This document shows, piece by piece, positions 4,235 to 35,628 of a stretch of DNA of 59,500 nt. The stretch's first letter is position 1. Every line of letters starts with the position of its first letter. The position numbers and the translations under genes were made by a program. Source of the stretch: Parietichytrium sp. I65-24A (taxonomy: Eukaryota; Sar; Bigyra; Thraustochytrida; Thraustochytriidae); assembly GCA_012862575.1 (NCBI GenBank), contig BLSF01000112.1, positions 1-59,500 of the forward strand. Direction: 5' to 3'. The notes beneath the pieces are model-generated. The model saw only the letters and a list, made by a program, of their open reading frames with translations. It was not told the origin of the DNA and made no database searches.

Positions 4235-5367
4235 TTGTTTGCGAGCATGTCTTCCAAGAAGCGTGTGTAGATGAACTTGCCTTCCGAGCGTTTGACCAGC
4301 TCGTCGACGACTGGCTTCATCTCAGATTCCTGAACTATGCCGGACAAGCGGTGCCGGAGGTAAGCAGCCATATCTTGGTCATTCTTGGCCACCTCGGCGT
4401 CGATTATGGTTGGGTTGAAGTTTCTCAGCTTGTCGGGAATAAAGCTCTCTGGACGGGAGGTGAGCACCAGCCCGAGCCACTTTGGCGTCTTCTTCACCCA
4501 ATTATTATGAATCACGTTGAAGAACGTTACCAGAGAGTCTTCCTTGCACTCGTCCAGAGCATCGAACACGACCAAGATGCGGACGCGCGGATCGGAGACA
4601 TTGCTGCATGGAGTAGCAATTAACGTGTTAAAAGCTTCTGCGATGGACATCTTGCTCAGATCAGAAAAGTCGGTTCTGTCATCCATCAACTCTTTTTTCA
4701 GCCCAGGTACGACACGGCTTAGCTGGTTAGTGATTGACTTGAAGGCTTGGAGCAGGTCGCTCGTGTTAGAATCGTCGTGCATGAACGAATGAATGGCCCC
4801 AACATGGACCTTTCCATCTTGCCTCGCCTCGCTTTGTTGAGAAGACAAACGACGAGATATGCGCTGGACTATAGAAGACTTGCGCTGTTCTCCGGTGGCT
4901 AACAGCGACTCCATGTTTCCATCATACAACCCACCACGCCTCGCCAGCTCTGCTGCCAGGGTGGATTTGCCAGCACCAGGGCCGCCAAGAAGTACGAACG
5001 CTCGCGTCCACTCTCGTTCCGGCCTCAAGTTCCACTGGTGTAGCTCGTCCAAGATCCACTGTCGCGTGCCCGGCGCGAATTCCTCTGCTTTCGTCATGGC
5101 TGCTCTCACAGGATTTGCGAGTCGTACTCGAAACAGATTGAGACGAGACTTGCCTGAAGAGCTGAGGCCGTGGGTTTCGTCTTTCCTTTTTTGTTCGACG
5201 TACTCCTTCAGCTTCTGGGCAATGTCCTTCTTTCGCTCATGGTCGTCCTCGTCGTGGCATCCGTCCACGACTTCGAGATCACCAACGTCCATCTTGAGCC
5301 GGGCTCCCCATTGCGACTTGTCCTTCATCTCTGGCTCCGTCACCAGCGGAATCATTCCAGTGATGCC
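4235..5367 (-). repeat. 1133-bp duplicate of part of the TIR-NACHT gene, flanked by single Ns
   Basis: This block reads the same as 6250-7382 (offset 2015 bases) along its whole length, and every encoded residue matches residues about 287-663 of the neighbouring receptor: the end of TIR2, the linker, the NACHT P-loop and the Walker B region. It is bounded by an N at 4234 and another at 5368. The block therefore looks like a collapsed or misplaced contig filling the gap where the receptor's WD40 region should be. It is not an independent gene: it starts and stops in mid-domain at the Ns. A real partial duplication with no divergence is the less likely alternative. Confidence 0.85.
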
Positions 5368-5368
5368 N

Positions 5369-8240
5369 CCCCGTCGCTAGCCACGCTGCTCACCCATTCA
5401 GTATGACCGACGAGCACCTTGCGAAGAGCGGACCGCGCAGGCGTGAGTGTGGGCTGGAGAAACTTGAGCCACGGCTTTGGCATCGCGTCCTCAAAGTCTC
5501 GTTCGAGCATCACATGGTCGCGCGGAAGCCGGCCCCACAGCTGGGAGGCCAGCTCGAGCGGGTCGCGAGCCAGGATGTTTGAGGCCATATCGAGAACCCG
5601 AAGCACGTCATCCGCGTTCCGATCGCGCTTCTCTTCAGGGTACGCTTCGTCCATGTCCGCTACCAGCTGGATCGCTTGGACGCCATCCCGTAGCGCACGC
5701 AAGAGCCACTCAAAGTCCAGCAAGTGCTTGTCTGCTTCGCCAAACCTTTTGACCTTGCACAGATGAAAGAGCAAATGTCGAAGGGAATAGGGGTCACCCT
5801 CTTCTTCAGCCAGTACCTTTCCCATGACCTTCAGCGCCCCCTTACGTCTAATAACCAACTCTGGAGGTCGGCCCTCGAGTTCGCTATTGACAAGCCAATC
5901 TGCCATGGACTTGTGCACAAACTGCAAGCGTCCCTCTGGACTCAAGTATAGCATGTTCTTTGCCTTTCCGAGCAACCTGTTCGTGGCCGCAATTCGCTCC
6001 TTCTCATCATCATCATCACCGTCATCGGAGTCAGAATCGCTGCTCTCGTTCAGGATGTGCTTAGCAAGCACCTTGCGCACCAGCGACTCTGGCAAAGGCT
6101 CGCGAGCTACCACCATGAGCGAAAGCAGCTCCCTGTACAACTTGTCCCCAAGTTTGATATAAAGGCGGTCGTAATACTCCGCGTACAATGCATCCACACC
6201 AGCCGGAAAGAGACTGTAATCTTGCAGAGCCGCCAAAGACAAGGATTTCTTGTTTGCGAGCATGTCTTCCAAGAAGCGTGTGTAGATGAACTTGCCTTCC
6301 GAGCGTTTGACCAGCTCGTCGACGACTGGCTTCATCTCAGATTCCTGAACTATGCCGGACAAGCGGTGCCGGAGGTAAGCAGCCATATCTTGGTCATTCT
6401 TGGCCACCTCGGCGTCGATTATGGTTGGGTTGAAGTTTCTCAGCTTGTCGGGAATAAAGCTCTCTGGACGGGAGGTGAGCACCAGCCCGAGCCACTTTGG
6501 CGTCTTCTTCACCCAATTATTATGAATCACGTTGAAGAACGTTACCAGAGAGTCTTCCTTGCACTCGTCCAGAGCATCGAACACGACCAAGATGCGGACG
6601 CGCGGATCGGAGACATTGCTGCATGGAGTAGCAATTAACGTGTTAAAAGCTTCTGCGATGGACATCTTGCTCAGATCAGAAAAGTCGGTTCTGTCATCCA
6701 TCAACTCTTTTTTCAGCCCAGGTACGACACGGCTTAGCTGGTTAGTGATTGACTTGAAGGCTTGGAGCAGGTCGCTCGTGTTAGAATCGTCGTGCATGAA
6801 CGAATGAATGGCCCCAACATGGACCTTTCCATCTTGCCTCGCCTCGCTTTGTTGAGAAGACAAACGACGAGATATGCGCTGGACTATAGAAGACTTGCGC
6901 TGTTCTCCGGTGGCTAACAGCGACTCCATGTTTCCATCATACAACCCACCACGCCTCGCCAGCTCTGCTGCCAGGGTGGATTTGCCAGCACCAGGGCCGC
7001 CAAGAAGTACGAACGCTCGCGTCCACTCTCGTTCCGGCCTCAAGTTCCACTGGTGTAGCTCGTCCAAGATCCACTGTCGCGTGCCCGGCGCGAATTCCTC
7101 TGCTTTCGTCATGGCTGCTCTCACAGGATTTGCGAGTCGTACTCGAAACAGATTGAGACGAGACTTGCCTGAAGAGCTGAGGCCGTGGGTTTCGTCTTTC
7201 CTTTTTTGTTCGACGTACTCCTTCAGCTTCTGGGCAATGTCCTTCTTTCGCTCATGGTCGTCCTCGTCGTGGCATCCGTCCACGACTTCGAGATCACCAA
7301 CGTCCATCTTGAGCCGGGCTCCCCATTGCGACTTGTCCTTCATCTCTGGCTCCGTCACCAGCGGAATCATTCCAGTGATGCCTTTCTCCATCACTGTTCC
7401 GTTGAACTCGCGGAGGCAGTTGTCGTTTGTTTTGGTGCCAATCCAGTCCATGTCAATCTTGCTGCTGTAATTCTTTGTCACACAAACGACCACAAATTGT
7501 GAGTTCTTGATTCCATTAGCCATGGCTTGACCAATGCCAGACCCTTTCGCCATCTGTCCTCTCCCATTCTCTCCGTCGTCCACCCACACGTCCAGACCCA
7601 GTTTCTCGAGTTGGAACGCGATGGAAGCGACTTTTTTGTGGTTGGAGCTTTTATCCCCCCAGTCGTGCGACAAGAACACGTCCCAGGTTTGCTTACCATT
7701 GTAGCCAAGGCGGGACGATAACATATGGGTCATCTTGTTGGCGACGTCAGAGTGTTTTCCACTCGTCGCATCGATGTACAGCATCTCTCCGAGCTCCATC
7801 TTGAGTCGAGGACTCCACTTGCCTTGGTTCCTCATCGCGGAACCCGTGACAACTGGCAGCATCCGCCGCGTGCCCTTCTGCACGGCGAGGTCGAACTCGC
7901 TCCGGCACGTCCTGCTTTGCGTCTTGAGCGCATCTTCTCCGGCACCGACGCATTCGTCGTATTCGTCGTCGATGAGCACGAACACCATGTCAGCTGCAGC
8001 TAAGGTGCCCGCCCGGTCAGTCTTGTCCTTCTTCTTCCAGCTTAACCTAGCCAACGACTTGCGCTTGCCATCGCCATCGCCATCGCCATTGCCACTTTTT
8101 GCGGGCTCGTCGAAATCGAAGGAGGCAGAGACGTTCAAGCCATGCTCTTTTGATGCGAGCAGATTGCAGAGCTGCTTCGCAACGGTGCTGGACGCACGGC
8201 TGTGCGACAGGAACACGGTTACGCCACCACTTTTGCCCAT
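5369..8240 (-). CDS. TIR-TIR-NACHT(-WD40) NLR-like receptor, 3' end lost at an N
   Basis: Starts at the ATG at 8238-8240; 957 residues are readable before the N. TIR1 covers about residues 5-160 (VFLSHSRAS at 8; C112..E115 as the WCxxE-like site). TIR2 covers about 184-325 (VFLSHDWG at 188; C275..E278). Both TIRs end with a related LKM-D/E-x-G segment, which suggests internal duplication. The NACHT domain has the P-loop GGPGAGKST at 414-422, Walker B LVVFDALDE at 551-559 and a sensor-like LTSRPES at 598. A winged-helix-like segment (FVHKSMADWL, 774) and helices follow. The first WD40 strand (LVGHTEWVSSVA) begins at 943 and is cut at 5368. In related proteins the NACHT oligomerises after WD40 sensing and TIR acts as NADase or signalling module. 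A role in immunity or self recognition is inferred. It is probably single-exon. Confidence 0.9.
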
Positions 8241-11776: not shown

Positions 11777-12049
11777 ATACGTACATACATACACACAAAC
11801 ATACGCATTGACTGGTGCTTGGCGCGGCTTTGAGGGGCGAGGACGTGTATACATATCCATTTACATATACGTATGCTCTGCGTTGCGTTGCGTTGTGGAG
11901 GTATAGTATAATCTCTCCATCTCTCCATCCATCTATTTACCTAGGTGTCACAATCGTTGAGGCACGCAAGAGTGTATAGGTCCGCATTGGAGAGAAAAGA
12001 AAGAAAGAGAGAAAAGAAAGAGAGAGAGAGGGCAAGGGCATCGCACCGA

Positions 12050-13525
12050 ATGAGGATTACGGAGCTGTACAGCGGGCTTGGAGGGTTCAGGCTTGCTGTG
12101 GAGAAGAGCGGTGTTGTGTACGGGAATGGCGGGGACGAGGCGATCCATGCGGCGTTCGATATGAACGACGTGGCGAATGTGGTGTACAAGCACAACTTTG
12201 CGTCGAATGTGTACGTGAGCAACCGCAATGTGTTGTTCTTGAAACCGAAGGACGAGGAATTTGAGACGCACGTGGCCAACGCGGACTTTCTGCTGCTCAG
12301 CCCACCGTGCCAGCCGTACACGAGGAGGAGGCAGAACCCGGTGTGCAACAAGACGTTCACGTCCGGGGAGCAAGACCGCAGCGGCAAGTCGGACACCAGG
12401 GCGCTCTCCATCCACCACCTGATCGAGCTCATGCACACGGAGGGGACCCCGCAGCCGCAGTTTATATTCATCGAAAACGTGCTGGGGTTTGAGCTGTCAG
12501 AGACGTTTGCGCGACTTCGACGGATGTTCGAGCACCGCGGGTACTCTTGGCAGTGCATCGTGATGTCTCCAGTAATGCTCGGGATCCCCAATTCCCGGCC
12601 GAGGCTCTACGTGATGGCCAAACGCAGCCCTTTCTACCACTCCAAATGGCACGGCTGTGTAGTGCAGGAGCGGTCTTCAGCGCCATCCAAAGCTAGCGCC
12701 CCAGGTGGTCAGGTTAGTAATAGTAATAGTGATGTCGCCGACGGCGGCAGCAATAAAGGTAGCAGCAGCGCAAATGATGAGGGTGACGAGATGGATTCCA
12801 GCGAGATCCGAAGAGTGCTTCTGAGTCCTGGCGAACTGATACACACGTTGGTGAACATCATTGGAGTGGATTGTGACGGCTTAGTCGAAGCGCCTATGGT
12901 CAACGCTTTGGAGGCCTTGAAAGCCAACCCAGAGCTTGGCGTTGGGACCCTTGCCAATACCCGCGTAGCCTGCGAGAAAATTGAGGCTTACATTTGCAGC
13001 GAATTGTCCCCGGAAGAGATAGAAGGGTCGCGGATATCGCCCTCCACGCTGTGGAAAGCGGGGAATATGTTCGAAATTGTCACTCCTCAAGCGCAGTGGT
13101 CACACTGTTTTACAAAATCGTACTCTCGTTTCCAGCTTGGGGCAGGCTCCGTCCTCTCAACCGCCCCCGAACTAGTTGACATGTCGCTTGAGGATGCCAA
13201 AACCTACTTGGCAGAAGCTTACGAGAAATTTTACCAAAGTCGGAATCGAATCATGGAATCTGAGGAGTTCAAGTCCCAAAGCGGCTCCTCCACGACCAAG
13301 TGGGCTGCCGTCTCCGAATCGGAGGGAGGGTGCCCTCACCTGGATCCTCTACGTCTGCGCTACTTTACGCCGCGAGAAATCGCAAACCTGATGGGTTTCC
13401 CAGAGTACTATAGCTTTCCGAGCTCAATACAGTTCAAGCAGTGCTATTCGCTGTTGGGCAACAGCCTCAATGTGAAAGTGGTGGCGCTTTTGCTTCGTTA
13501 CATGATGATGAATTCGGCTAGTTAG
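12050..13525 (+). CDS. TRDMT1: DNMT2-type tRNA (cytosine-5) methyltransferase
   Basis: The protein has 491 residues from the ATG at 12050; an upstream GTG extension was rejected because MRITELYSGLGG is the normal family start with SAM-binding motif I. Catalytic motif IV is PPCQPYTR (85-92, nucleophile C87), motif VI is ENV (142-144), motif VIII is RPRLYVM (183-189), the DNMT2-diagnostic CFT motif sits at 353-355, the target-recognition end RYFTPREIANLMGFP is near 437-451, and motif X is GNSLNV (470-475). DNMT2 enzymes methylate C38 of tRNA-Asp with S-adenosylmethionine. The protein is about 100 residues longer than the human form, mainly through a Ser/Asn/Gly/Asp-rich insert at about 207-252. 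It converges on the dynein gene 400 bases downstream. Confidence 0.95.
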   Translation: MRITELYSGLGGFRLAVEKSGVVYGNGGDEAIHAAFDMNDVANVVYKHNFASNVYVSNRNVLFLKPKDEEFETHVANADFLLLSPPCQPYTRRRQNPVCNKTFTSGEQDRSGKSDTRALSIHHLIELMHTEGTPQPQFIFIENVLGFELSETFARLRRMFEHRGYSWQCIVMSPVMLGIPNSRPRLYVMAKRSPFYHSKWHGCVVQERSSAPSKASAPGGQVSNSNSDVADGGSNKGSSSANDEGDEMDSSEIRRVLLSPGELIHTLVNIIGVDCDGLVEAPMVNALEALKANPELGVGTLANTRVACEKIEAYICSELSPEEIEGSRISPSTLWKAGNMFEIVTPQAQWSHCFTKSYSRFQLGAGSVLSTAPELVDMSLEDAKTYLAEAYEKFYQSRNRIMESEEFKSQSGSSTTKWAAVSESEGGCPHLDPLRLRYFTPREIANLMGFPEYYSFPSSIQFKQCYSLLGNSLNVKVVALLLRYMMMNSAS

Positions 13526-19262: not shown

Positions 19263-22200
19263 ATGTCTGCGTCTGCATCTGCTGGATCGGTGGTGGTGGT
19301 GTATGAAGTGGGAAATGAGGAGCATCTCGCCTGTGGCAAGTCGGTGTTGGACCTGACGGAAGTGGTCGCTGCGAGTCTGAGCAGCAGCGGCTATGCTGTG
19401 TGGTACAGCGGAATGCCAGAAGCATCGCCAGAGGCAGCACAGGCGAACAACGATAGCGACGACGAAGGCGATTTTTATGGTCGACGTAACAGACAAGGAA
19501 GAGGCCGAGGAGGGCCGGATGCAAGAGACCTGGAGTCGGTGTTTGTAGAGAAGCTGGCACACGCAACTGGTGTTGTGTTGATGCTGACCTCATCGTTCAT
19601 GAAAAATGCAGCGAGCGGCAACATCGCTGACAAGTGCAGGGTACAACTGGAGCAAGTCATGCTTACAAAGCAGAGCGAGGTCATCACTGTGGCTCTGGAC
19701 TCAGGGGTGAAGGTTCCAAAGTCTTGGGAGGGGCCCGTAGCCGTGTTTTGCAATCCCAGCTCGTTCGTGGATATGTCGTCCAAGTCGCAGCCGGAAGCGG
19801 CCATCCCGTTCATCACAAATATTTGCGAGGAGCTGAAACAACCTTACCAGGAGAGGCCGCTCAGCCTTCAGACGCCATCTCAGCAGGAAGTCCTCTCCCG
19901 CGTTTTCGAGCTCCCAGATGACTTTAAGCCTTTCGAGCACATCCAGTCCAAAGCGATGGAGTACGTAAAGGGGACCAGGTCGGACTTCCGTGAGGCAATA
20001 GAGAACTGGTACGCCAAAGATCTGCCCAAATCGAAGAACAGAGTGCTTCCCTTCCTTGGACCAGTGGGCTACGGCAAGTCGGTCATGATGGCATTGATTT
20101 GCTTTCTTGGAGGTCTCACCACGCGTCGCGATGGCGAAGCAAGCGAGCGCAGCTCAAAGCGATTCAAATTTGCGTTACGTCGCCTGAGCTTCCGTGCAAG
20201 TTCTGGCGACAAGCTCGTTGTTGGCGCTGCGCACTTTTTCAAACGCAACGACCGATCTGCCTCTAAGCTCCGTGTGTGCATTTTGTCTCTGGCGAACCAG
20301 ATTGCACTTGTTGTTCCAGGTTTTCGGGCTGTCCTGGCCAGTCTCGCCTCGGATGCCGCAATTGAGACGATGGACTTGGACGAACTATTTCGCACTCTGT
20401 TGAGCAGGCCACTTCAACAGATCTCCAAGCCAAGCAAGCCGTTCGTCGTTGTCCTGGACGCTGTAGACAGCGTTTGCGCGGAAGACAAATCGTCTCTCAT
20501 GTCGATTATTCAAGAACGTTGGGTCAACGAAATGCCTGGCTGGCTCGGATTGGTGGTGTCCTCGCGATTCGATGCTGATGTGGAAGCAGCTGTGCAAAGC
20601 TTCTCTCCAACGAGACTGGATCTGAAGAGTCGATCAAACATGGACGACCTGAAGAGTTTTCTCGTTACTAGGCTCACTCCCAGGTTTAACCGCAAATCTG
20701 AAGCTCAGAGTGCAGCTGCCGTTTTAGCCACTAGAAGCGAGGGTTTCTTTTTGTATGCGAGCTACGTGGATAAATTTCTATCCAACATCCCGGATGAGAA
20801 ACTCACCATGGCAAACATCACAGACATGTCTCTCTTTCCGCCCGGGCTTGATGCTGTCTACCGTGACAACTTTGAGCGTCTTCTCGTGGAGTCCCTCGAA
20901 GACAATTTTGATCGCTACGACAATCTTCTTGCTGCGATGGTGGCCGCTCGTGCACCTCTTCCGAAGTACATAGTCAAAGTGCTTCTCGATCTTGGTTCCG
21001 ACGAGGAATTGAGCCGATTCTTGTCCAAGACTGCGCAGTTTCTGGCCGTGTCCGAGAGCACAGTCACATTCTTGCACCCCACCATGGAGGAGTTTATTCG
21101 TGACAAGAAGAGAGCTGGCAAGGTCAGTGACGTCTCCACCACAAATGCTGGTAAAAGCCTCGCTGTCTCGGTGGCGCACGGCCACCAGAGTCTCGGGCAT
21201 GCTCTCGAGGAATATCCCGACTCTGAGTTTGCCAATCAACACCTCCTGTATCACCTTTGTTGCGCAAAGTTACACGAGAAGGTGAGCTCCTATGTCCTCA
21301 ACTTCCCATGGTTGTACAACGTTATCAAAGGCCCAGGCAGCGCACGTGTGGTGGTTGAAGACATCGACGGCAACTACAGCTTTGAGAAAAGCTCTCAGAA
21401 CAGTGTCGTTGACGTAGTGCGCTGCCTCGAACTGAGCTTGCCATTGATCTCCCAGAATCCAGCTGTCTTCGTGTTCAACCTTGTTTCACGGATTTCGGAC
21501 CCGGAGCACCCAATTCTCAAGTCCTTTTGGGCATCCGAGCTGTCAAAGGCCCCAGAGATTGCTGACATGTTTGTTGTTTCCCAATCAACACTTTGCGCAC
21601 CTTGGCTGAACCAGCGCAAGACAATATCAACCTCGTCGCCTCAATCCCGTATCGTTGAGTCCAACGGCGAGCTTCTTTACAGCGACTCCAAGAGCGGCCT
21701 CGTTCTCATGGATTGGCACTCCGGACAGATCAAGCGCACTTACACTCACAATCAAGGAAGGTATTCTCAGCCAATAAATACCTTTGATATGAACGAAGCG
21801 GTTATCGTAGCTGACATAGGTCAATCCCTTGTGGTCTTAGAGCGGGCCACTGGGAATGAACTGGGCAGCCGGTCAAACTTGAGGAATGAAATGTCTGTGA
21901 TTGCTATCGGTGGAGATAAGATTGCTATCGGTTCTTGGACTGGCTCGGTGCTCCTTACAGACACCTTGAATGTCTCTGGTACTGAACCAACTCAGATTGT
22001 TGCCGACCAAACATCTCCCCTACACACATCTGCTGTAAATGCTCTTGTGTTCCAGGACAACTTTCTTGTTTCCGCATCGTCTGATAACCGTGTTCGTGTC
22101 ACAGACATTGCAGCAAGTCGCCCAGCCGTGAAGTTGACTTTGACCGGGCACACGTCTCCAGTAGTGTCTCTTGCCGTAGACGAGAGGGTGATCGTTTCTG

Positions 22201-23417
22201 GTTCATGGGACTGCACTGCTCGTGTTTGGGACTTCAATTCTGGAGACCTGATTCACACCTTGGAAGGACACGAAAGCTGGGTTCTCGGAGTGGCGTTGCA
22301 TGACAACCGCATCGTCACAGCGTCACATGACAAGACGTTGCGCGTCTGGGACACTGACTCTGGTGAGTGCACGACACGCATGGTCGGTCATACGTCGTAC
22401 GTCACGTCGTGCGTCATCGGGAGCGACTCGTCGGCCATCAGCTGCTCCTATGACGGAACTATTCGCGTCTGGGATATGAGTGGTGACAAGGACGAGTTGG
22501 AAATCATTGGCCACAGTGATCGTGTCTCGTGCATTTCTGCGGACGGAGACCTGTTCGTGACTGGATCGTTTGACAACACGATAAAGTTGTGGAACGTTCA
22601 CAGCAAATCTTGTTTGAGAACATTTACCGGCCACACGGACCTGGTTGAGTCTGTATACTTGAAGAACGGCGTCGTGCTCTCTGGCTCACGTGATAAGACT
22701 TGCCGCGTATGGGAAGCAGAGACTGGCAATTGCCTTCAAGTGTTCGACCAGCACGAGAATGATGTGGTCAGCGTTTGCCTCGTGGGGAACAACGTCGTGA
22801 CCTTGTCGCGGGACAACAAGCTCAGGGTGTGGGACCTTCAATCAGGCGAGCTCAAGCACACCGAAGAATTTCTGTGCTTTCGCTCCGTCGGGCCGGGTGC
22901 CATCATCACCCCTGTGGACAGTGAGCACGTCAGGTTGTACGGGCAACAAGTGTCTCTCTTCAGTCTTGCAGAGATGAAGGTCGTTGAAAATGCACCGAAC
23001 ACTACTGTACGGTACGTGTCCGCTGATGGGAAGACGGTGTGCCGCAGGGAAGGACACAAGAGCTTTGCTGCTGACACTTCATCCTCGGATTTGCTCAATC
23101 TCGTCGGCCCATCTACGGAACTGATCTCGTTTGATGCAAACTCCACCCTCGTGGCCAGCAGCTTATGGGATGGAAGAGTGTATGCTTTTCATCGAGGCGA
23201 GGATGGCCCTGCTAATGAGGAAGACGTCAAAATGGAAGAAGAGGGTGGAGAAGAAAATGAAGAGGAAACTCTATTCCCAGTTACGAATGCTCCCAATCCG
23301 CGACATTTGGTTGGATTATTTGACTCTCGCGCTGCCGCACTTGCTGTGACTGGGAATAACATTATCGTCGGTGAATGGAGCGGAGCTGTGCACATTCTCT
23401 CTCCACTTCACGGGTAA
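19263..23417 (+). CDS. TIR-like-NACHT-WD40 NLR-like receptor, 1384 aa, complete
   Basis: One uninterrupted frame from the ATG at 19263. Residues about 8-195 form a TIR-like module (VVVVYEVG at 10, VVLMLTSSF at 104); at the WCxxE-like site it reads C125-R-V-Q128, so the usual catalytic glutamate is replaced by glutamine. The NACHT domain has the P-loop GPVGYGKS (266-273), Walker B FVVVLDAVDS (394-403) and a VVSSRFD segment (431). A FLHPTMEEFI winged-helix-like motif lies at 603. WD40 repeats run from about 800 to the end; typical blades are VSGSWDCTARVWDF, VTASHDKTLRVWDT, VTGSFDNTIKLWNV and LSGSRDKTCRVWEA. The acidic stretch at 1318-1336 is unusual inside the propeller. This looks like a sensor-NTPase-effector protein of innate immunity; its function and ligand are unknown. 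Confidence 0.93.
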   Translation: MSASASAGSVVVVYEVGNEEHLACGKSVLDLTEVVAASLSSSGYAVWYSGMPEASPEAAQANNDSDDEGDFYGRRNRQGRGRGGPDARDLESVFVEKLAHATGVVLMLTSSFMKNAASGNIADKCRVQLEQVMLTKQSEVITVALDSGVKVPKSWEGPVAVFCNPSSFVDMSSKSQPEAAIPFITNICEELKQPYQERPLSLQTPSQQEVLSRVFELPDDFKPFEHIQSKAMEYVKGTRSDFREAIENWYAKDLPKSKNRVLPFLGPVGYGKSVMMALICFLGGLTTRRDGEASERSSKRFKFALRRLSFRASSGDKLVVGAAHFFKRNDRSASKLRVCILSLANQIALVVPGFRAVLASLASDAAIETMDLDELFRTLLSRPLQQISKPSKPFVVVLDAVDSVCAEDKSSLMSIIQERWVNEMPGWLGLVVSSRFDADVEAAVQSFSPTRLDLKSRSNMDDLKSFLVTRLTPRFNRKSEAQSAAAVLATRSEGFFLYASYVDKFLSNIPDEKLTMANITDMSLFPPGLDAVYRDNFERLLVESLEDNFDRYDNLLAAMVAARAPLPKYIVKVLLDLGSDEELSRFLSKTAQFLAVSESTVTFLHPTMEEFIRDKKRAGKVSDVSTTNAGKSLAVSVAHGHQSLGHALEEYPDSEFANQHLLYHLCCAKLHEKVSSYVLNFPWLYNVIKGPGSARVVVEDIDGNYSFEKSSQNSVVDVVRCLELSLPLISQNPAVFVFNLVSRISDPEHPILKSFWASELSKAPEIADMFVVSQSTLCAPWLNQRKTISTSSPQSRIVESNGELLYSDSKSGLVLMDWHSGQIKRTYTHNQGRYSQPINTFDMNEAVIVADIGQSLVVLERATGNELGSRSNLRNEMSVIAIGGDKIAIGSWTGSVLLTDTLNVSGTEPTQIVADQTSPLHTSAVNALVFQDNFLVSASSDNRVRVTDIAASRPAVKLTLTGHTSPVVSLAVDERVIVSGSWDCTARVWDFNSGDLIHTLEGHESWVLGVALHDNRIVTASHDKTLRVWDTDSGECTTRMVGHTSYVTSCVIGSDSSAISCSYDGTIRVWDMSGDKDELEIIGHSDRVSCISADGDLFVTGSFDNTIKLWNVHSKSCLRTFTGHTDLVESVYLKNGVVLSGSRDKTCRVWEAETGNCLQVFDQHENDVVSVCLVGNNVVTLSRDNKLRVWDLQSGELKHTEEFLCFRSVGPGAIITPVDSEHVRLYGQQVSLFSLAEMKVVENAPNTTVRYVSADGKTVCRREGHKSFAADTSSSDLLNLVGPSTELISFDANSTLVASSLWDGRVYAFHRGEDGPANEEDVKMEEEGGEENEEETLFPVTNAPNPRHLVGLFDSRAAALAVTGNNIIVGEWSGAVHILSPLHG

Positions 23418-23796: not shown

Positions 23797-23869
23797 TACT
23801 CGCGCCGGGGCTCGAACCCAGGACTTCAACCGTGTCAGAGTTGCACTCTACCAACTGAGTTACGCGGGC
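23797..23869 (-). tRNA. tRNA-like gene, anticodon GAC (Val), copy 1
   Basis: The 73-base cloverleaf has acceptor 5' strand GCCCGCG, D arm ACTC-AGTTGGTA-GAGT, anticodon arm CAACT-CTGACAC-GGTTG, variable loop of five and T arm CTGGG-TTCGAGC-CCCGG. The internal promoter boxes A and B are good. The anticodon is GAC, reading GUC/GUU (valine). In the acceptor stem, pair 3-70 is a C-A mismatch and pair 1-72 is G-U. A run of seven T on the minus strand just downstream can end RNA polymerase III transcription. No CCA is encoded, as expected for a nuclear gene. A tRNA-derived short interspersed element is the alternative. Confidence 0.75.
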
Positions 23870-24169
23870 GAACGGCAGGGAGCCCTCGCCCTCTATGTGA
23901 CTCACAAGTTCGTAACGGTAAGCACTGGGCACACTTCCATTTTTTTTTTTTTTTTGGAATTTTAATTTTGATTTTTTTGTCATTTCGATATTTTTTTACT
24001 GTTGCTAATTGTTAATTTGAAGGTTTTTAATTAAATTATTTTTAAAAATAACTGAAGATTCTACTAACCAGGCGAGGTGTAATGAGCACAGAAGGCGCAC
24101 ACCAAAAGCTTGTTGACTTTTTATAATATAAAAAACTAAGCCGGAACGGAAGAAAAAAGACAAAACAGA

Positions 24170-24242
24170 TACTCGCGCCGGGGCTCGAACCCAGGACTTC
24201 AACCGTGTCAGAGTTGCACTCTACCAACTGAGTTACGCGGGC
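24170..24242 (-). tRNA. tRNA-like gene, anticodon GAC (Val), copy 2
   Basis: The sequence is identical to copy 1 over all 73 bases, including the C3-A70 mismatch. About 25 bases of 5' flank are also similar to copy 1, which points to local duplication; the rest of the flanks differ. T runs follow within about 10 bases of the 3' end. Confidence 0.75.
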
Positions 24243-24522
24243 GAACTGCAGGGCAACCTCGCCCTCTATCTTGCTGTGCCGGCGAGCGTCTCCAATCAAA
24301 CAATGAAGAAGAGCGCTGGCGGTTTCTTCATTCATTACCTTTTTTAAAAATAAAAAAGATTTAAAACGAGTCCAACACTTGATGATGGAAATTTAGAGGA
24401 AAAGAGAATACAGAAACACGCTTCAGTGTAGTGTCGCGAGTGACGATACTACTATGGTACTAATGCAGATAGGAATTTGTAGCAAAAAAGTAATTGGGAG
24501 GAAAAATACAAAGAAAAAAGAA

Positions 24523-24595
24523 TACTCGCGCCGGGGCTCGAACCCAGGACTTCAACCGTGTCAGAGTTGCACTCTACCAACTGAGTTACGCGGGC
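24523..24595 (-). tRNA. tRNA-like gene, anticodon GAC (Val), copy 3
   Basis: Identical to copies 1 and 2 over 73 bases, but with unrelated flanks. A T6 run on the minus strand starts within about five bases of the 3' end. Strict identity of the gene with diverged surroundings supports selection or gene conversion. Confidence 0.75.
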
Positions 24596-25370: not shown

Positions 25371-26843
25371 TTACGCGAACAGAGCCACGAGCAATGGCGC
25401 CAACAAGAAGGCAGTGGATGCTGCTCTTGGAGCTTCACTAAGGTCCACGCTGACACTTGGCGTGATTGCGGTGATGTTAACAGTTGGTGCATTTGTTGGC
25501 GAAACAGTTGGAGAGGTGGTTGGAGCGTTGGTCGGGGAGACTGTCGGAGTTGAAGTTGGCGCCGCAGTTGGGGACTTGCTTGGAGCAGCAGTCGGAAGTG
25601 GCGTTGGGCACACGCAAGTGGTTGGTGCGAATGTTGGAGAAAATGTTGGAGACGCGGTTGGCTTCATCGTTGGAGACGTGGTTGGCGCAGCAGTTGTTGG
25701 TGACGCGGTTGGGCTCTTCGTTGGTGACACAGTTGGGCTCTTCGTTGGGGAGTCAGTCGGTGAGACGGTTGGCGCTGCAGTAGTTGGGGAGGCAGTTGGG
25801 CTCATTGTTGGAGAAACCGTTGGAGACGCGGTTGGCTTCAACGTTGGAGACTCGGTTGGCGCTGCAGTAGTTGGTGACTCGGTTGGGCTATCGGTTGGTG
25901 ACACAGTTGGGCTCTTGGTTGGTGAGTCAGTTGGTGACTTAGTTGGCGAGTTGGTCGGTGAGACAGTTGGTGACTCAGTTGGCGAGTTAGTCGGTGAGAC
26001 AGTTGGCGCTGCAGTTGTTGGTGACGCGGTTGGGGTCTTGGTCGGTGACAATGTTGGGCTCGCTGTTGGTGACACTGTTGGGCTCACTGATGGTGAGTCA
26101 GTTGGGCTCACTGTTGGTGAGTCTGTTGGGGTCTTGGTTGGTGACACAGTCGGGCTCTTAGTTGGTGACACAGTTGGGCTCTTGGTTGGTGAGTCAGTTG
26201 GGCTCGTTGTTGGTGACACAGTCGGGCTCTTAGTTGGTGACTCAGTTGGGCTCTTGGTTGGTGAGTCAGTTGGTGACTTAGTTGGCGCTGCAGTAGTCGG
26301 TGAGTTGGTTGGGTTCATTGTTGGTGACTTGGTTGGGCTCTCTGTTGGGAACGCAGTTGGGCTCACTGTTGGTGAGTCAGTTGGGCTCACTGTTGGTGAG
26401 TCAGTTGGCGCTGCAGTAGTTGGTGTGGCAGTTGGGCTCACTGTTGGTGAGTCAGTTGGCGCTGCAGTAGTTGGTGTGGCAGTTGGGTTCTCGGTCGGTG
26501 ACAGAGTTGGGGCCTTGGTTGGAAGCTGAGTTGGTGAGTGAGTTGGTGTTGCAGTAGTCGGTGAGACAGTTGGGCTCTTTGTTGGTGAGACAGTTGGGCT
26601 CTTTGTTGGTGAGTCAGTCGGTGAGACAGTTGGGGCTGCAGTAGTTGGAGCAGATGTGGGCGCCAATGTGGTTGGCGCCTTTGTCGGAGCAGAAGTCGGC
26701 GCATTGGTTGGTTCAAAGGTCGGCGCGAAGGTTGGGGCCAAGGTCTGACGGCAAAAGCTTTGGCATTCGTCCGAGATCGCAAGCGCAGGCTCAGATCTCG
26801 CTAAGAGAACCACGGCAGTGAATAGTGCGGCCGAGATCTTCAT
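25371..26843 (-). CDS. secreted PT-repeat mucin-like protein 1, probably GPI-anchored
   Basis: The protein has 490 residues from the ATG at 26841-26843. A signal peptide (residues 1-22, cut after ALA) is followed by a short conserved head with C27 and C31 ([19 protein letters not shown]). About 400 residues of four-residue repeats of the S/A-P-T-x type follow, likely heavily O-glycosylated. [10 protein letters not shown] motif lies near the C-terminus, and the protein ends with [10 protein letters not shown] plus a hydrophobic tail ([13 protein letters not shown]), which fits a GPI signal. The predicted role is a wall or surface glycoprotein. The DNA repeat has a 12-base period, which leaves an antisense Val-Gly-rich frame open. 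A possible 59-base 5' UTR intron (GTAAGC donor at 26907, AG at 26849) precedes the start. Confidence 0.88.
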
Positions 26844-29051: not shown

Positions 29052-30242
29052 TTAGACCATGATTGCCATGACAAGAGGAGCGATCAGGAACGCAGCGACG
29101 GTGGACTTGGGCGCGGCGCTGAGATCCACGACAACGCTTGGGCTGACGCTCGGGTTGTAGGTACCGTTGTTGTAATAGTCGGTGGTGTTCAGAGTTGGCG
29201 CAGCAGTGGCTTCAACGGAAGGTGCAGCACTTGGCGACACAGTTGGAGCATCGGTTGGTGCCACTGTTGGCGACACAGTTGGAGCATCGGTTGGTGCCAC
29301 TGTTGGCGCATTTGTTGGCGCTTGAGTTGGAGAAGTGGTTGGAGTCTTGGTTGGGGCATCAGTTGGGGAGGTGGTTGGCGACTTGGTCGGAGAAACTGTT
29401 GGGGAGGTGGTTGGCGACTTGGTCGGGGATACTGTCGGAGCCGAAGTTGGCGCGGCAGTTGGGGATCTGGTTGGAGAAGCAGTCGGAAGCGGCGTTGGGC
29501 ACACGCAAGTGGTTGGCGCGAATGTTGGAGAAAGTGTTGGAGACGCGGTTGGCTTCATCGTTGGAGACTTTGTTGGCGCTGCAGTAGTTGGCGACTTGGT
29601 TGGGCTCATTGTTGGTGACACAGTTGGGCTCTTGGTTGGGGAGTCAGTCGGTGAGACGGTTGGCGCTGCAGTAGTTGGTGACACAGTTGGGCTGTTGGTT
29701 GGTGACACGGTTGGGCTCTTGGTTGGTGAGTCAGTTGGGCTCACTGTTGGTGAGTCAGTTGGCGCTGCAGTAGTCGGAGACTTGGTTGGGCTCACTGTTG
29801 GTGACTTGGTTGGCGCTGCAGTAGTTGGTGACAAAGTTGGGCTATCTGTTGGAAAGGCAGTTGGGCTATCTGTTGGAAAGGCAGTTGGGCTCACTGTTGG
29901 TGAATCAGTTGGGCTCACTGTTGGTGAATCAGTTGGCGCTGCAGTAGTCGGAGACTTGGTTGGCTCCATTGTTGGTGACTTGGTTGGGCTCACTGTTGGG
30001 AACGCAGTTGGTGACATTGTTGGCGCCGCAGTAGTTGGCGACTTGGTTGGGTTCATTGTTGGTGACTGAGTTGGGTTCTTGGTTGGGAACTCAGTTGGTG
30101 ACGCAGTTGGTTCAAAGCTCGGCGCAAAGGTTGGAGCCAAGGTCTGGCGGCAAAAGTCTTGGCATTCGTCCGAGATCGCAAACGCAGGCTCAGATCTTGC
30201 TAAGAGAACCAGGACAGCAGTGAACGCCGTCGAAACCTTCAT
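29052..30242 (-). CDS. secreted PT-repeat mucin-like protein 2, probably GPI-anchored
   Basis: The protein has 396 residues starting at the ATG at 30240-30242; an 18-residue upstream extension was rejected because the signal peptide [20 protein letters not shown] begins here. The head has C27 and C31, as in protein 1, followed by x-S/A-P-T repeats interspersed with TTAAPT units, a [10 protein letters not shown] motif, an N-glycosylation-type [13 protein letters not shown] stretch, then [10 protein letters not shown] and a hydrophobic end ([14 protein letters not shown]) that fits a GPI signal. It is a clear paralogue of the genes at 25371 and 34714. A second, diverged version of its 5' half lies 1000 bases to the right. 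Confidence 0.88.
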
Positions 30243-30924
30243 CTTTATCCTAAAGTACCTGAATACTTTACGGAGTTGACAGGTCTTACGGAGCAAGAAT
30301 TCGCGAACAATCGCAGGACTGCGCTAGAAGTTCAGATGATGGCTGCCAACTGATTGAACTCCTTGTTGCTCAGATTGGTTTTGGGTTTGCCGCATGTCTT
30401 CCGGTTGAATTCTGAAAAGGCGATGCCGATCTTGCAAATCACCAATATGCACTAACCGTGTTAACTCAAACTAGAAGTGGATGATGCCGCGAAGCAGACC
30501 TTCTCTAGACGAGCTTTGCCAGCCAGACAAAGTTGATATGCACATCTACTTTGGTCCGTTGACTGCCCAAGTTCCGGCCCCATTAAAAATAAAAAAAGGT
30601 CCCAAAAGTGCATGAGTTGCCTATGTACTCATCAATTCCAATCTTATTTGGGCTTTTGAACCGTCTTGATAGATCTTGGTGTCCGTTCTTTTGCAGGTTT
30701 GGTGTCCGTTCTTTCCACTTCGTCTCCAATCAGCAGAAACCTGATCACCATGACGGAAAAAAGTCAAACGGATAAGAAAGCATCCTCTACAAAACTGTCT
30801 TTCCCGCCTCGTTGGCTGAAATAACTTCCGGCTCAGATTTTTCTAATCTCCTGAAGTGACTCGAGCAGTAGTGCCGCCATGAGAAACTAATCGACTTCCT
30901 TGACGCGATTGTGAACATTGGCCT
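30243..30924. repeat. upstream half of a 1000-base-offset duplication, left copy
   Basis: The upstream region of PT-repeat gene 2 matches 31243-31924 at a constant offset of 1000 bases, with roughly a dozen substitutions and no net indel. The left copy ends at the N at 30925 while the right copy continues. The homology also covers the first part of the coding sequence. Confidence 0.85.
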
Positions 30925-30925
30925 N

Positions 30926-31242
30926 CTCTCTGTTGTTGGGCTCTCTGTTGGTGACTTGGTTGGCTCCATTGTTGGTGACTTGGTTGGGCTCGAGGTAGGG
31001 TACGCAGTTGGCTCCATTGTTGGCGCTGCAGTAGTTGGCGACTTGGTTGGGTTCATTGTTGGTGACTGAGTTGGGTTCTTGGTTGGGAACTCAGTTGGTG
31101 ACGCAGTTGGTTCAAAGCTCGGCGCGAAGGTTGGAGCCAAGGTCTGGCGGCAAAAGTCTTGGCATTCGTCCGAGATCGCAAACGCAGGCTCAGATCTTGC
31201 TAAGAGAACCACGACAGCAGTGAACGCCGTCGAAACCTTCAT
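30926..31242 (-). CDS. 5' fragment of a PT-repeat gene, cut at an N
   Basis: About 105 residues starting at the ATG at 31240-31242. The signal peptide and C27/C31 head are nearly identical to PT-repeat protein 2, followed by PT repeats that diverge near the break. The frame runs into the N at 30925, after which non-coding sequence follows, so the C-terminal part is absent. It is either an allele of gene 2 joined end to end by the assembler or a real tandem paralogue broken by a gap. Confidence 0.75.
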
Positions 31243-31924
31243 CTTTATCCTAAAGTACCTGAATACTTTACGGAGTTGACAGGTCTTACGGAGCAAGAAT
31301 TCGCGAACAATCGCAGGACTGCGCTAGAATTTCAGATGATGGCTGCCAACTGATTGAACTCCTTGTTGGTCAGATTGGTTTTGGGTTTGCCGCTTGTCTT
31401 CCGGTTGGGATCTGAAAAGGCGATGCCGATCTTGCCAATCACCAATATGCACTAACCGTGTTAACTCAAACTAGAAGTGGATTATGTCGCGAAGCAGACC
31501 TTCTCTAGACGAGCTTTGCCAGCCAGCCAAAGTTGATGTGCATATCTACTTTGGTCCGTTGACTGCCCAAGTTCCGGCCCCATTAAAATTAAAAAAAGGT
31601 CCCAAAAGTGCATGAGTTGCCTATGTACTCATCAATTCCAATCTTATTTGGGCTTTTGAACCGTCTTGATAGATCTTGGTGTCCGTTCTTTTGCAGGTTT
31701 GGTGTCCGTTCTTTCCATTTCGTCTCCAATCAGCAGAAACCTGATCACCATGACGGAAAAAAGTCAAACGGATAAGAAAGCATCCTCTACAAAACTGTCT
31801 TTCCCGCCTCGTTGGCTGAAATAACTTCCGGCTCAGATTTTTCTAATCTCCTGAAGTGACTCGAGCAGTAGTGCCGCCATGAGAAACTAATCGACTTCCT
31901 TGACGCGATTGTGAACATTGGCCT
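31243..31924. repeat. upstream half of the 1000-base-offset duplication, right copy
   Basis: Near-identical to 30243-30924. It continues without a break into unique sequence after 31924. Confidence 0.85.
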
Positions 31925-34713: not shown

Positions 34714-35628
34714 TTAAGCAAATGCGACGAGAAGTAGCGGTGCGAACAACAGGGCAGTGAACCCAGTCTTTGGCGCAGCGCTCAGATCCACGGAAATGCT
34801 TGGGCTCAGGGTACCGTTGTTGTAAATATCAGTCACATTGACAGTTGGAGCCAATGTTGGGGTCGCTGTTGGGGTTGCTGAAGGAGCACTGGTGGGAGCA
34901 GAGCTTGGGGCCAAGGTTGGCTCAGAAGTTGGGGCATCGGTTGGAGATGCAGTAGGAAGAGGTGTTGGGCAAATGCAAGACGTTGGAGCGTCGGTTGGTG
35001 CATCGGTTGGCGCAGCAGTTGGTTCAGCAGTTGGCGCATCAGTTGGCTGAGCAGTTGGTGCATCAGTTGGCGCTGCGGTTGGCTGAGCAGTTGGTGCATC
35101 AGTTGGCGCATTGGTTGGTGCAACAGTTGGCGCATCGGTTGGTTGAGCAGTTGGTGCATCAGTTGGTGCTGAGGTTGGCTGAGCAGTTGGTGCATCAGTT
35201 GGTGCTGAGGTTGGCTGAGCAGTTGGTGCATCAGTTGGTGCTGAGGTTGGCTGAGCAGTCGGTGCATCAGTTGGCGCATTGGTTGGTGCAACAGTTGGCG
35301 CATTGGTTGGTGCACTGGTTGGTGCATTGGTTGGTGCACTGGTGGTTGGCGAAGCACTTGGCGCGTTAGTTGGAGCGCTGGTTGGAGCGCTGGTTGGAGC
35401 GCTGGTTGGAGCGCTGGTTGGAGCGCTGGTCGGAGCGCTGGTTGGAGCGCTGGTTGGAGCGCTGGTCGGAGCGCTGGTTGGAGCCTTTGATGGTGCAAAG
35501 GTCGGTGCAAAGGTTGGCGCGAGGGTTTGTCTGCAGATCTGTTCGCATTGTGCTGAGATTGCTGACACCTGAAGTTCTTCGCGCGAGGCGAGAACCACAG
35601 CAGCGAAAAGAGCAGCCGAGATCTTCAT
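34714..35628 (-). CDS. secreted PT-repeat mucin-like protein 3, probably GPI-anchored
   Basis: The protein has 304 residues from the ATG at 35626-35628. The signal peptide covers about residues 1-23, followed by a head with C28 and C32. Next comes a very regular SAPT block (about 35-85) encoded by perfect 12-base units, then APTDAPTAQPT-type units, a CICPTPLPT motif, NVTDIYNNGT and SISVDLSAAP, and a hydrophobic tail. It shares the whole plan of proteins 1 and 2 but with Ala-Pro-Thr rather than Ser-Pro-Thr repeats. The perfect SAPT block suggests recent repeat expansion. A cell-surface role is inferred. Confidence 0.88.
   Translation of the reverse strand: MKISAALFAAVVLASREELQVSAISAQCEQICRQTLAPTFAPTFAPSKAPTSAPTSAPTSAPTSAPTSAPTSAPTSAPTSAPTSAPTNAPSASPTTSAPTNAPTSAPTNAPTVAPTNAPTDAPTAQPTSAPTDAPTAQPTSAPTDAPTAQPTSAPTDAPTAQPTDAPTVAPTNAPTDAPTAQPTAAPTDAPTAQPTDAPTAEPTAAPTDAPTDAPTSCICPTPLPTASPTDAPTSEPTLAPSSAPTSAPSATPTATPTLAPTVNVTDIYNNGTLSPSISVDLSAAPKTGFTALLFAPLLLVAFA

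Follow-up and report, generated by a model that had tools for sequence, protein, structure and literature searches.

Introduction

The nearest worked example of a receptor built like the one described here is provided by HET-D and HET-E of Podospora anserina, in which the WD40 sensor is reported to recognise HET-C variants (PMC12222747). In the repeats of the HNWD proteins, codons 7, 9, 25 and 27 are described as being under strong positive selection, the two pairs flanking conserved residues (Paoletti et al. 2007, PMC1805685), and the 11 conserved and 3 cryptic repeats of HET-E have been modelled as two seven-bladed propellers (PMC12222747). High internal conservation of repeats, for which Dyrka et al. 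(2014, PMC4986451) use a criterion of 85% identity over 100 residues, is presented there as over-represented among fungal NLRs and, overall, uncommon in plants and animals. Of the 305 highly repetitive WD40s found by Hu et al. (2017, PMC5587647), half come from bacteria and a third from fungi, with none in animals or plants; the same text describes variable hotspot sites in repetitive WD40s. Because it also mentions protists, the presence of similar WD40 repeats in such an organism is in itself no novelty.

The gene that we analysed lies in a window (the whole stretch of DNA under study) that corresponds to the entire 59.5-kb contig C112 of a 42.5-Mb genome in 172 contigs, the size of which points to a microbial eukaryote. 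Its family shares with the HNWD proteins (HET-D, HET-E and HET-R) an N-terminal effector, a NACHT domain and a high-identity WD40 array, and differs from them in carrying two TIR_2 domains where those have one TIR-related HET domain. The layout also resembles that of the plant TIR-NB-LRR (TNL) receptors, in which a TIR effector likewise precedes a STAND NTPase and a repeat sensor, although these have NB-ARC in place of NACHT/NPHP3_N, LRR in place of WD40 and usually one TIR. SARM1 (ARM-SAM-SAM-TIR) differs from the family in having neither NACHT nor WD40.

We propose, at a probability of roughly 70%, that the window gene is one member of a diversifying NLR-like STAND family with the layout TIR1-TIR2-NACHT-helical arm-WD40, for which we infer a mechanism below. 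The individual pieces are known. Among the open-licence PMC papers listed, no title or abstract opening announces a protist TIR-NACHT-WD40 protein, and none of these listings showed twin TIRs joined to a WD40 repertoire that diversifies in concert.

Architecture of the window gene

The gene occupies 5369..8240 on the minus strand, where an open reading frame begins with the ATG at 8240 and extends for 957 full codons up to an assembly gap. It encodes, in order and all on the minus strand, TIR1 (residues 5-160; 7761..8228), TIR2 (residues 185-346; 7203..7688), a NACHT/NPHP3_N-type STAND NTPase core (residues 406-660; 6261..7025), a helical arm (5466..6260) with weak matches to TANC1-HTH and APAF1_C, both below cut-off, and the opening 13 residues of WD40 repeat 1 (GHTEWVSSVASDG; 5369..5408), recognised by comparing the translation with the repeats of paralogs. 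The frame is then broken by a single N at 5368, which stands for a gap of unknown length within the WD40 array; the array beyond it is unseen in this copy, and all of the sensor results come from paralogs.

In Pfam, TIR_2 matches residues 188-325 of the frame, and the best stretch of the NPHP3_N/NACHT-type match lies at residues 449-591. NPHP3_N scored 67.2 bits against a cut-off of 24.8, which groups the P-loop region with the STAND NTPases, as the sequence-only reading had supposed, and the NACHT model PF05729 scored 22.7, below its cut-off of 26.7. No HET family occurs among the 18 Pfam matches of the frame at E<=1, and TIR_2 is found instead. The Walker A (GGPGAGKST; 6975..7001, minus strand) and Walker B (ILVVFDALDE; 6564..6593, minus strand) motifs, which had been described as intact, are indeed so, and both are present in 10 of the 10 family members examined. 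With these motifs and with a tripartite order of effector, NTPase and repeat sensor, which the window copy follows up to the start of the WD40 array and which is complete in the copy on contig C10, the gene is predicted to encode an NLR-like STAND NTPase of the NACHT clade.

Directly beyond the gap lies a 1133-bp segment (4235..5367, minus strand), with an N at both ends, that is 100% identical to 6250-7382; it is either a misplaced repeat contig or what is left of an identical copy in tandem. With single-N gaps and such a duplicate so close by, the gene itself might be suspected of being a scaffolding chimera, in which case the order from the TIRs through NACHT to the start of WD40 would be artificial. 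We regard this as extremely improbable, because there is no N within 5369-8240 and the copies on C24, C49 and C10 repeat the same domain order across the whole query, at 79-81% protein identity.

Two predicted TIR domains with conserved C-x-x-E motifs

The sequence-only reading had described an NLR-like receptor with two tandem TIRs before NACHT and WD40, and profile and structure searches now place both domains in the TIR fold. Pfam TIR_2 matches TIR1, a divergent representative, in 11 of 11 family members at E<=1. In AF2 models built from five-row alignments, each of which had the other TIR as one row, both domains adopt TIR folds, and the TIR1 model (pLDDT 74.7, with a low-confidence insert at residues 46-72, pLDDT <50) returned TIR structural matches. 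Among the VIA rows listed, 50 of 50 were of the TIR superfamily for TIR1 and 47 of 50, judged by title, for TIR2; Foldseek matches at E<=0.001 numbered just one for TIR1 and three for TIR2. A profile of TIR1 run against PDB sequences gave two matches (E 0.68 and 1.7), neither of them a TIR. By model fold and profile match together, TIR1 and TIR2 each classify as predicted TIR domains.

The Foldseek rows also included arginine decarboxylase for both domains, quinone reductases and CENP-M for TIR1, and nucleoside deoxyribosyltransferases for TIR2, all of which we took to reflect common alpha/beta arrangements. Matches of the TIR part to PADLOC models (PDC-S66 at 1.2e-9, bSEFIR at 3.5e-8 and others weaker) were not taken as membership, nor was the match of the PADLOC HEAT-ARM model to the WD40 region of C10.

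Each domain carries the C-x-x-E pattern that had been noted from the letters (CRSE at residues 112-115 of TIR1, 7896..7907; CLRE at residues 275-278 of TIR2, 7407..7418; both on the minus strand), and the pattern is retained throughout the family, in 11 of 11 aligned TIR1s, where C and E are invariant, and in 10 of 10 aligned TIR2s. The motif of TIR1 shares its alignment column with the C-x-x-E of three related proteins. We take the glutamate of both motifs to be the putative catalytic Glu of NADase TIRs; in the HMMER alignment of TIR2 with AbTIR, however, the C-x-x-E Glu does not fall on the catalytic Glu of AbTIR.

A C-terminal LKM-D/E-x-G segment common to the two TIRs had been read as a sign of internal duplication. 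We did not retain the segment as specific evidence for this, since a related one is visible by eye in other TIR proteins of the genome (C29, C7 and C42), and a tree of the TIRs does not resolve TIR1 with TIR2: TIR1, TIR2, the other host TIRs and four outside TIRs are each supported as a group, with the order of the groups left open and with long-branch warnings.

Relatives outside the genome

With the full-length protein, the homolog search gave at least nine distant matches among 7995 scored, and the family profile gave at least seven matches elsewhere at E<=1e-10 among 7997 scored; residues 1-345 gave none among 2188 candidates. Two peptide patterns in each case led to a homolog at 0 of 44 pattern stretches in viral contigs and at 1 of 577 in prokaryote genomes, and we treat such absence as weak evidence.

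Three single-TIR relatives (P0002, P0003 and P0009), which are NACHT-WD40 or NACHT-TPR proteins, resemble the family in having TIR_2 followed by an NPHP3_N-type NACHT and, in P0002, by WD40; L046, from a Clostridia MAG, is TIR-NACHT by eye. All four differ from the family in having one TIR only, at 23-26% identity to it, and in the tree their TIRs are placed, on long branches, away from those of the host, TIR1 and TIR2 included.

A multicopy family constrained on average

Rather than standing alone, the window gene is one of 12 long copies, recovered from 11 contigs by DNA and protein searches of the genome (one each on C112, C24, C49, C123, C10, C144, C169, C45, C128 and C139, and two on C30) and matching at 64-84% protein identity. 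Shorter pieces, at 44-90% identity, lie at seven more places (C26, C65, C156, C95, C72, and C49 and C24 a second time); this count does not include the exact duplicate that lies in the window. The two C30 copies (C30:354141-359720; L021, L025) are near-identical and stand in a row with N between them, and represent either a tandem duplication or an assembly artefact like that at 4235-5367 of the window.

The C10 copy is an uninterrupted frame from ATG to stop, of 1413 aa and with nine WD40 stretches, and the C24 copy stays open through 1487 codons, with its end taken from L045. Stops are present in C123, C144, C26 and at the second places on C49 and C24. Between copies, median omega is 0.25 in TIR1 (35 pairs), 0.24 in TIR2 (36 pairs), 0.23 in NACHT (45 pairs) and 0.34 in the helical arm (21 pairs), so both TIRs are constrained on average. 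These values bear on the idea that the copies form a repeat family which was amplified recently, is partly in decay and now does little or nothing; this would account for the stops in C123, C144, C26 and the second place on C49 and for the seven places that hold shorter pieces only. We consider such decay quite improbable for the family as a whole, given a median omega of about 0.24 in both TIRs and NACHT, Walker motifs intact in every member examined, and the uninterrupted frames of C10 and C24.

Hypervariable columns in the WD40 repeats

The diversifying WD40 sensor, the feature that says more about the family, lay beyond the view of the sequence-only reading. In both relatives with complete frames (C10 and C24), the protein closes with an array of WD40 repeats that are 40 residues long and similar to one another, and the repeats of the paralogs, mostly at an exact spacing of 120 bp, give a 40-residue consensus. 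From 68 forty-codon windows, 60 without N or stop were kept, 49 passed the register filter, and removal of 5 terminal degenerate repeats left a set of 44 core repeats, drawn from eight arrays in seven genes. Some real repeats are missing from this set (repeat 3 of C49b, repeat 4 of C123, repeat 8 of C144 and repeat 3 of C49a, which contains an N), the C144 array is entered at its second repeat, and nothing was taken from C112, C128, C139, C156 or the other C30 copy, which also have arrays or partial repeats; leaving out deviant repeats favours framework conservation.

Among the 44 repeats, columns 5, 7, 21, 4 and 23 are hypervariable, with entropies of 3.7-2.6 bits against a next highest value of 1.23, and the five-residue signatures include 41 distinct ones. 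The selected HNWD codons 7, 9, 25 and 27 (PMC1805685) correspond to columns 5, 7, 21 and 23 here, in a register mapped by hand after the repeats had been seen and with the four-column set taken after the entropies were known; all four columns are in the top five of 40 by entropy, columns 5 and 7 flank V6, and columns 21 and 23 flank D22. The repeat differs from that of HNWD in its length of 40 residues, with two fewer between the selected pairs.

Pooled pN/pS, a rough measure here that comes from counting statistics on recombining repeats, is 1.25 at columns 5, 7, 21 and 23 (bootstrap over repeats 1.05-1.51); for the 35 framework columns that remain without the variable five it is 0.43 (0.35-0.51). 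The pN of the four columns that match HNWD amounts to 2.6 times the pS of the whole repeat. Taken singly, columns 5, 7 and 21 have pN above pS, column 23 has pN 0.43 below pS 0.47, and column 4 has pN and pS both at 0.67; several framework columns also have pN above pS, at low values. An alternative seven-column set gave a pN/pS of 1.36, but it includes columns 3 and 30, neither of which is hypervariable.

Such variation could also arise if these were non-immune signalling or scaffold STAND proteins, with roles in development or stress, whose TIRs served as homotypic adaptors and whose WD40 repeats varied through relaxed constraint and recent repeat duplication. Repetitive WD40s with variable hotspot sites are indeed described from bacteria and fungi, with no immune role shown in the available part of the source (PMC5587647). 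Relaxation, however, is not expected to restrict change to five columns, and the purifying selection on the framework, the excess of four-column pN over the pS of the whole repeat and the constraint on the TIRs and NACHT seen in omega all argue against it, so we judge this alternative unlikely and favour the diversifying receptor family.

Mean pairwise amino acid identity within arrays ranges from 0.66 to 0.875 and reaches 0.85 or more in 2 of 8 arrays, those of C123 (3 repeats) and C49a (2 repeats); this is a mean identity, and not the procedure of PMC4986451. The longest array, that of C24, is the least homogeneous (0.66). It comprises 11 core repeats, a degenerate one and a tail, to be set beside the 11 conserved and 3 cryptic repeats of HET-E, and the other copies show fewer, in an assembly too unreliable for a comparison. 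As controls, a second NACHT-WD40 gene in the window (19263..23417, plus strand; complete, 1384 aa, a distant relative with 31% identity over query residues 372-913) has repeats that are 31% alike over 28 columns, from 10 pairs among five pattern-found repeats, and a third NACHT-WD40 gene, on C86, gave 55% from three repeats only.

Probable concerted evolution of the sensor

The framework of the repeats is 0.889 identical at the nucleotide level between genes and 0.874 within them, and the nearest neighbour of a repeat belongs to another gene in 32 cases of 44. In the other 12 it belongs to the same gene, against 6.6 expected at random, so local duplication also occurs, which is a point in favour of the non-immune alternative set out above. 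Positional ancestry is not erased either, since repeats of the same index are slightly closer between genes than those of different index (0.839 vs 0.827).

The dS of the WD40 framework is lower than that of the body in 20 of 21 gene pairs (medians 0.185 vs 0.382), the exception being C24-C123; the pairs are not independent, those with C123 use 330 body codons, and C30 contributes the body of one near-identical copy and the WD40 repeats of the other. Along the protein, median dS per 80-codon bin is 0.37-1.5 over the 11 bins up to residue 880, drops to 0.09 in residues 881-944, the last 64 before the WD40 array (seven genes, 15-21 pairs), and is 0.35 in the C-terminal tail (eight genes, 28 pairs). 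A lower dS in the repeats than in the bodies is as expected of concerted evolution, and we read the low dS as a probable trace of conversion or exchange that has acted repeatedly on the sensor part of the copies. Exchange would not all be recent, since each of the 44 repeats is distinct over its 120 nt and only 3 have a between-gene match of at least 95%. Judged by sequence, the WD40 sensor evolves as a separate unit, its framework homogenised between paralogs and its variation gathered at the residues that match those selected in HNWD.

Homogenisation of repeats between paralogs is a further likeness to HNWD. Membership in that group fails on the HET domain, and the sensor, to judge from its repeats, behaves like an HNWD sensor; HNWD proteins act in allorecognition, a phenotype not known for the present family.

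A possible mechanism and its implications

The likely role of these proteins, as we infer it, is non-self recognition inside the cell, by a diversifying receptor whose effectors are its paired TIRs. Variable ligands, which might be pathogen-derived or might be polymorphic self or guarded proteins as for HET-D/E, would bind the top face of the propeller; binding would free NACHT for NTP-driven oligomerisation, and the oligomer would gather the tandem TIRs of adjacent subunits. The gathered TIRs could then cleave NAD+ or make a nucleotide signal, with a cell-death or defence response as the output. Two TIRs per chain might double the TIR density of each oligomer, or might divide the work between one catalytic and one scaffold TIR.

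We give about even odds to the wider proposition that a non-fungal microbial eukaryote has built an HNWD-like repertoire independently, with a twin-TIR effector in place of a HET domain, and that the diversifying-propeller solution is convergent across eukaryotes; in such a multigene NLR family, repeats would be traded and evened out among loci, and diversifying selection would act on the matching residues of the propeller face. If our reading is right, the diversifying, concertedly evolving NLR sensor would extend from a filamentous fungus to probably another microbial eukaryote lineage, and would there be paired with tandem, putatively enzymatic TIRs; the two C-x-x-E motifs and the five hypervariable propeller columns are offered as candidate residues. 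Illumina-based assemblies are reported to fail to reconstruct such arrays (PMC12222747), and here too the assembly breaks in the WD40 arrays; such breaks at the sensor suggest that short-read assemblies can hide repertoires of this kind.

Other genes in the window and genome

The N-terminus of the second NACHT-WD40 gene (19263..23417) is TIR-like by eye, without the C-x-x-E Glu, and its WD40 repeats are of the ordinary divergent type. Other TIR proteins of the genome have different layouts. Two are ankyrin-repeat proteins with a C-terminal TIR (L042:1522-3177, minus strand, on C7; L004:313-1944, plus strand, on C42), in which the stretch before the TIR is SAM-like by eye, an arrangement reminiscent of SARM1. 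A ROCO-like protein on C81 (L041:1-2331, plus strand) has a COR-A domain followed by a TIR, and a protein on C43 (L002:1381-3306, minus strand) has a Mind-bomb-type SH3 repeat domain followed by a TIR.

Elsewhere in the window, three proline/threonine-rich repeat proteins with similar N-termini are encoded on the minus strand at 25371-26843, 29052-30296 and 34714-35628, and a gap at 30925 is adjoined by two sequences, 29947-30924 and 30947-31924, that share 97% identity. Three tRNA genes found with Rfam, with equal scores, lie in repeated segments of ~80-120 bp at 23797-24595 (minus strand), and an open reading frame at 11945-13525 (plus strand) resembles, by eye, a DNMT2-kind C5-cytosine methyltransferase.
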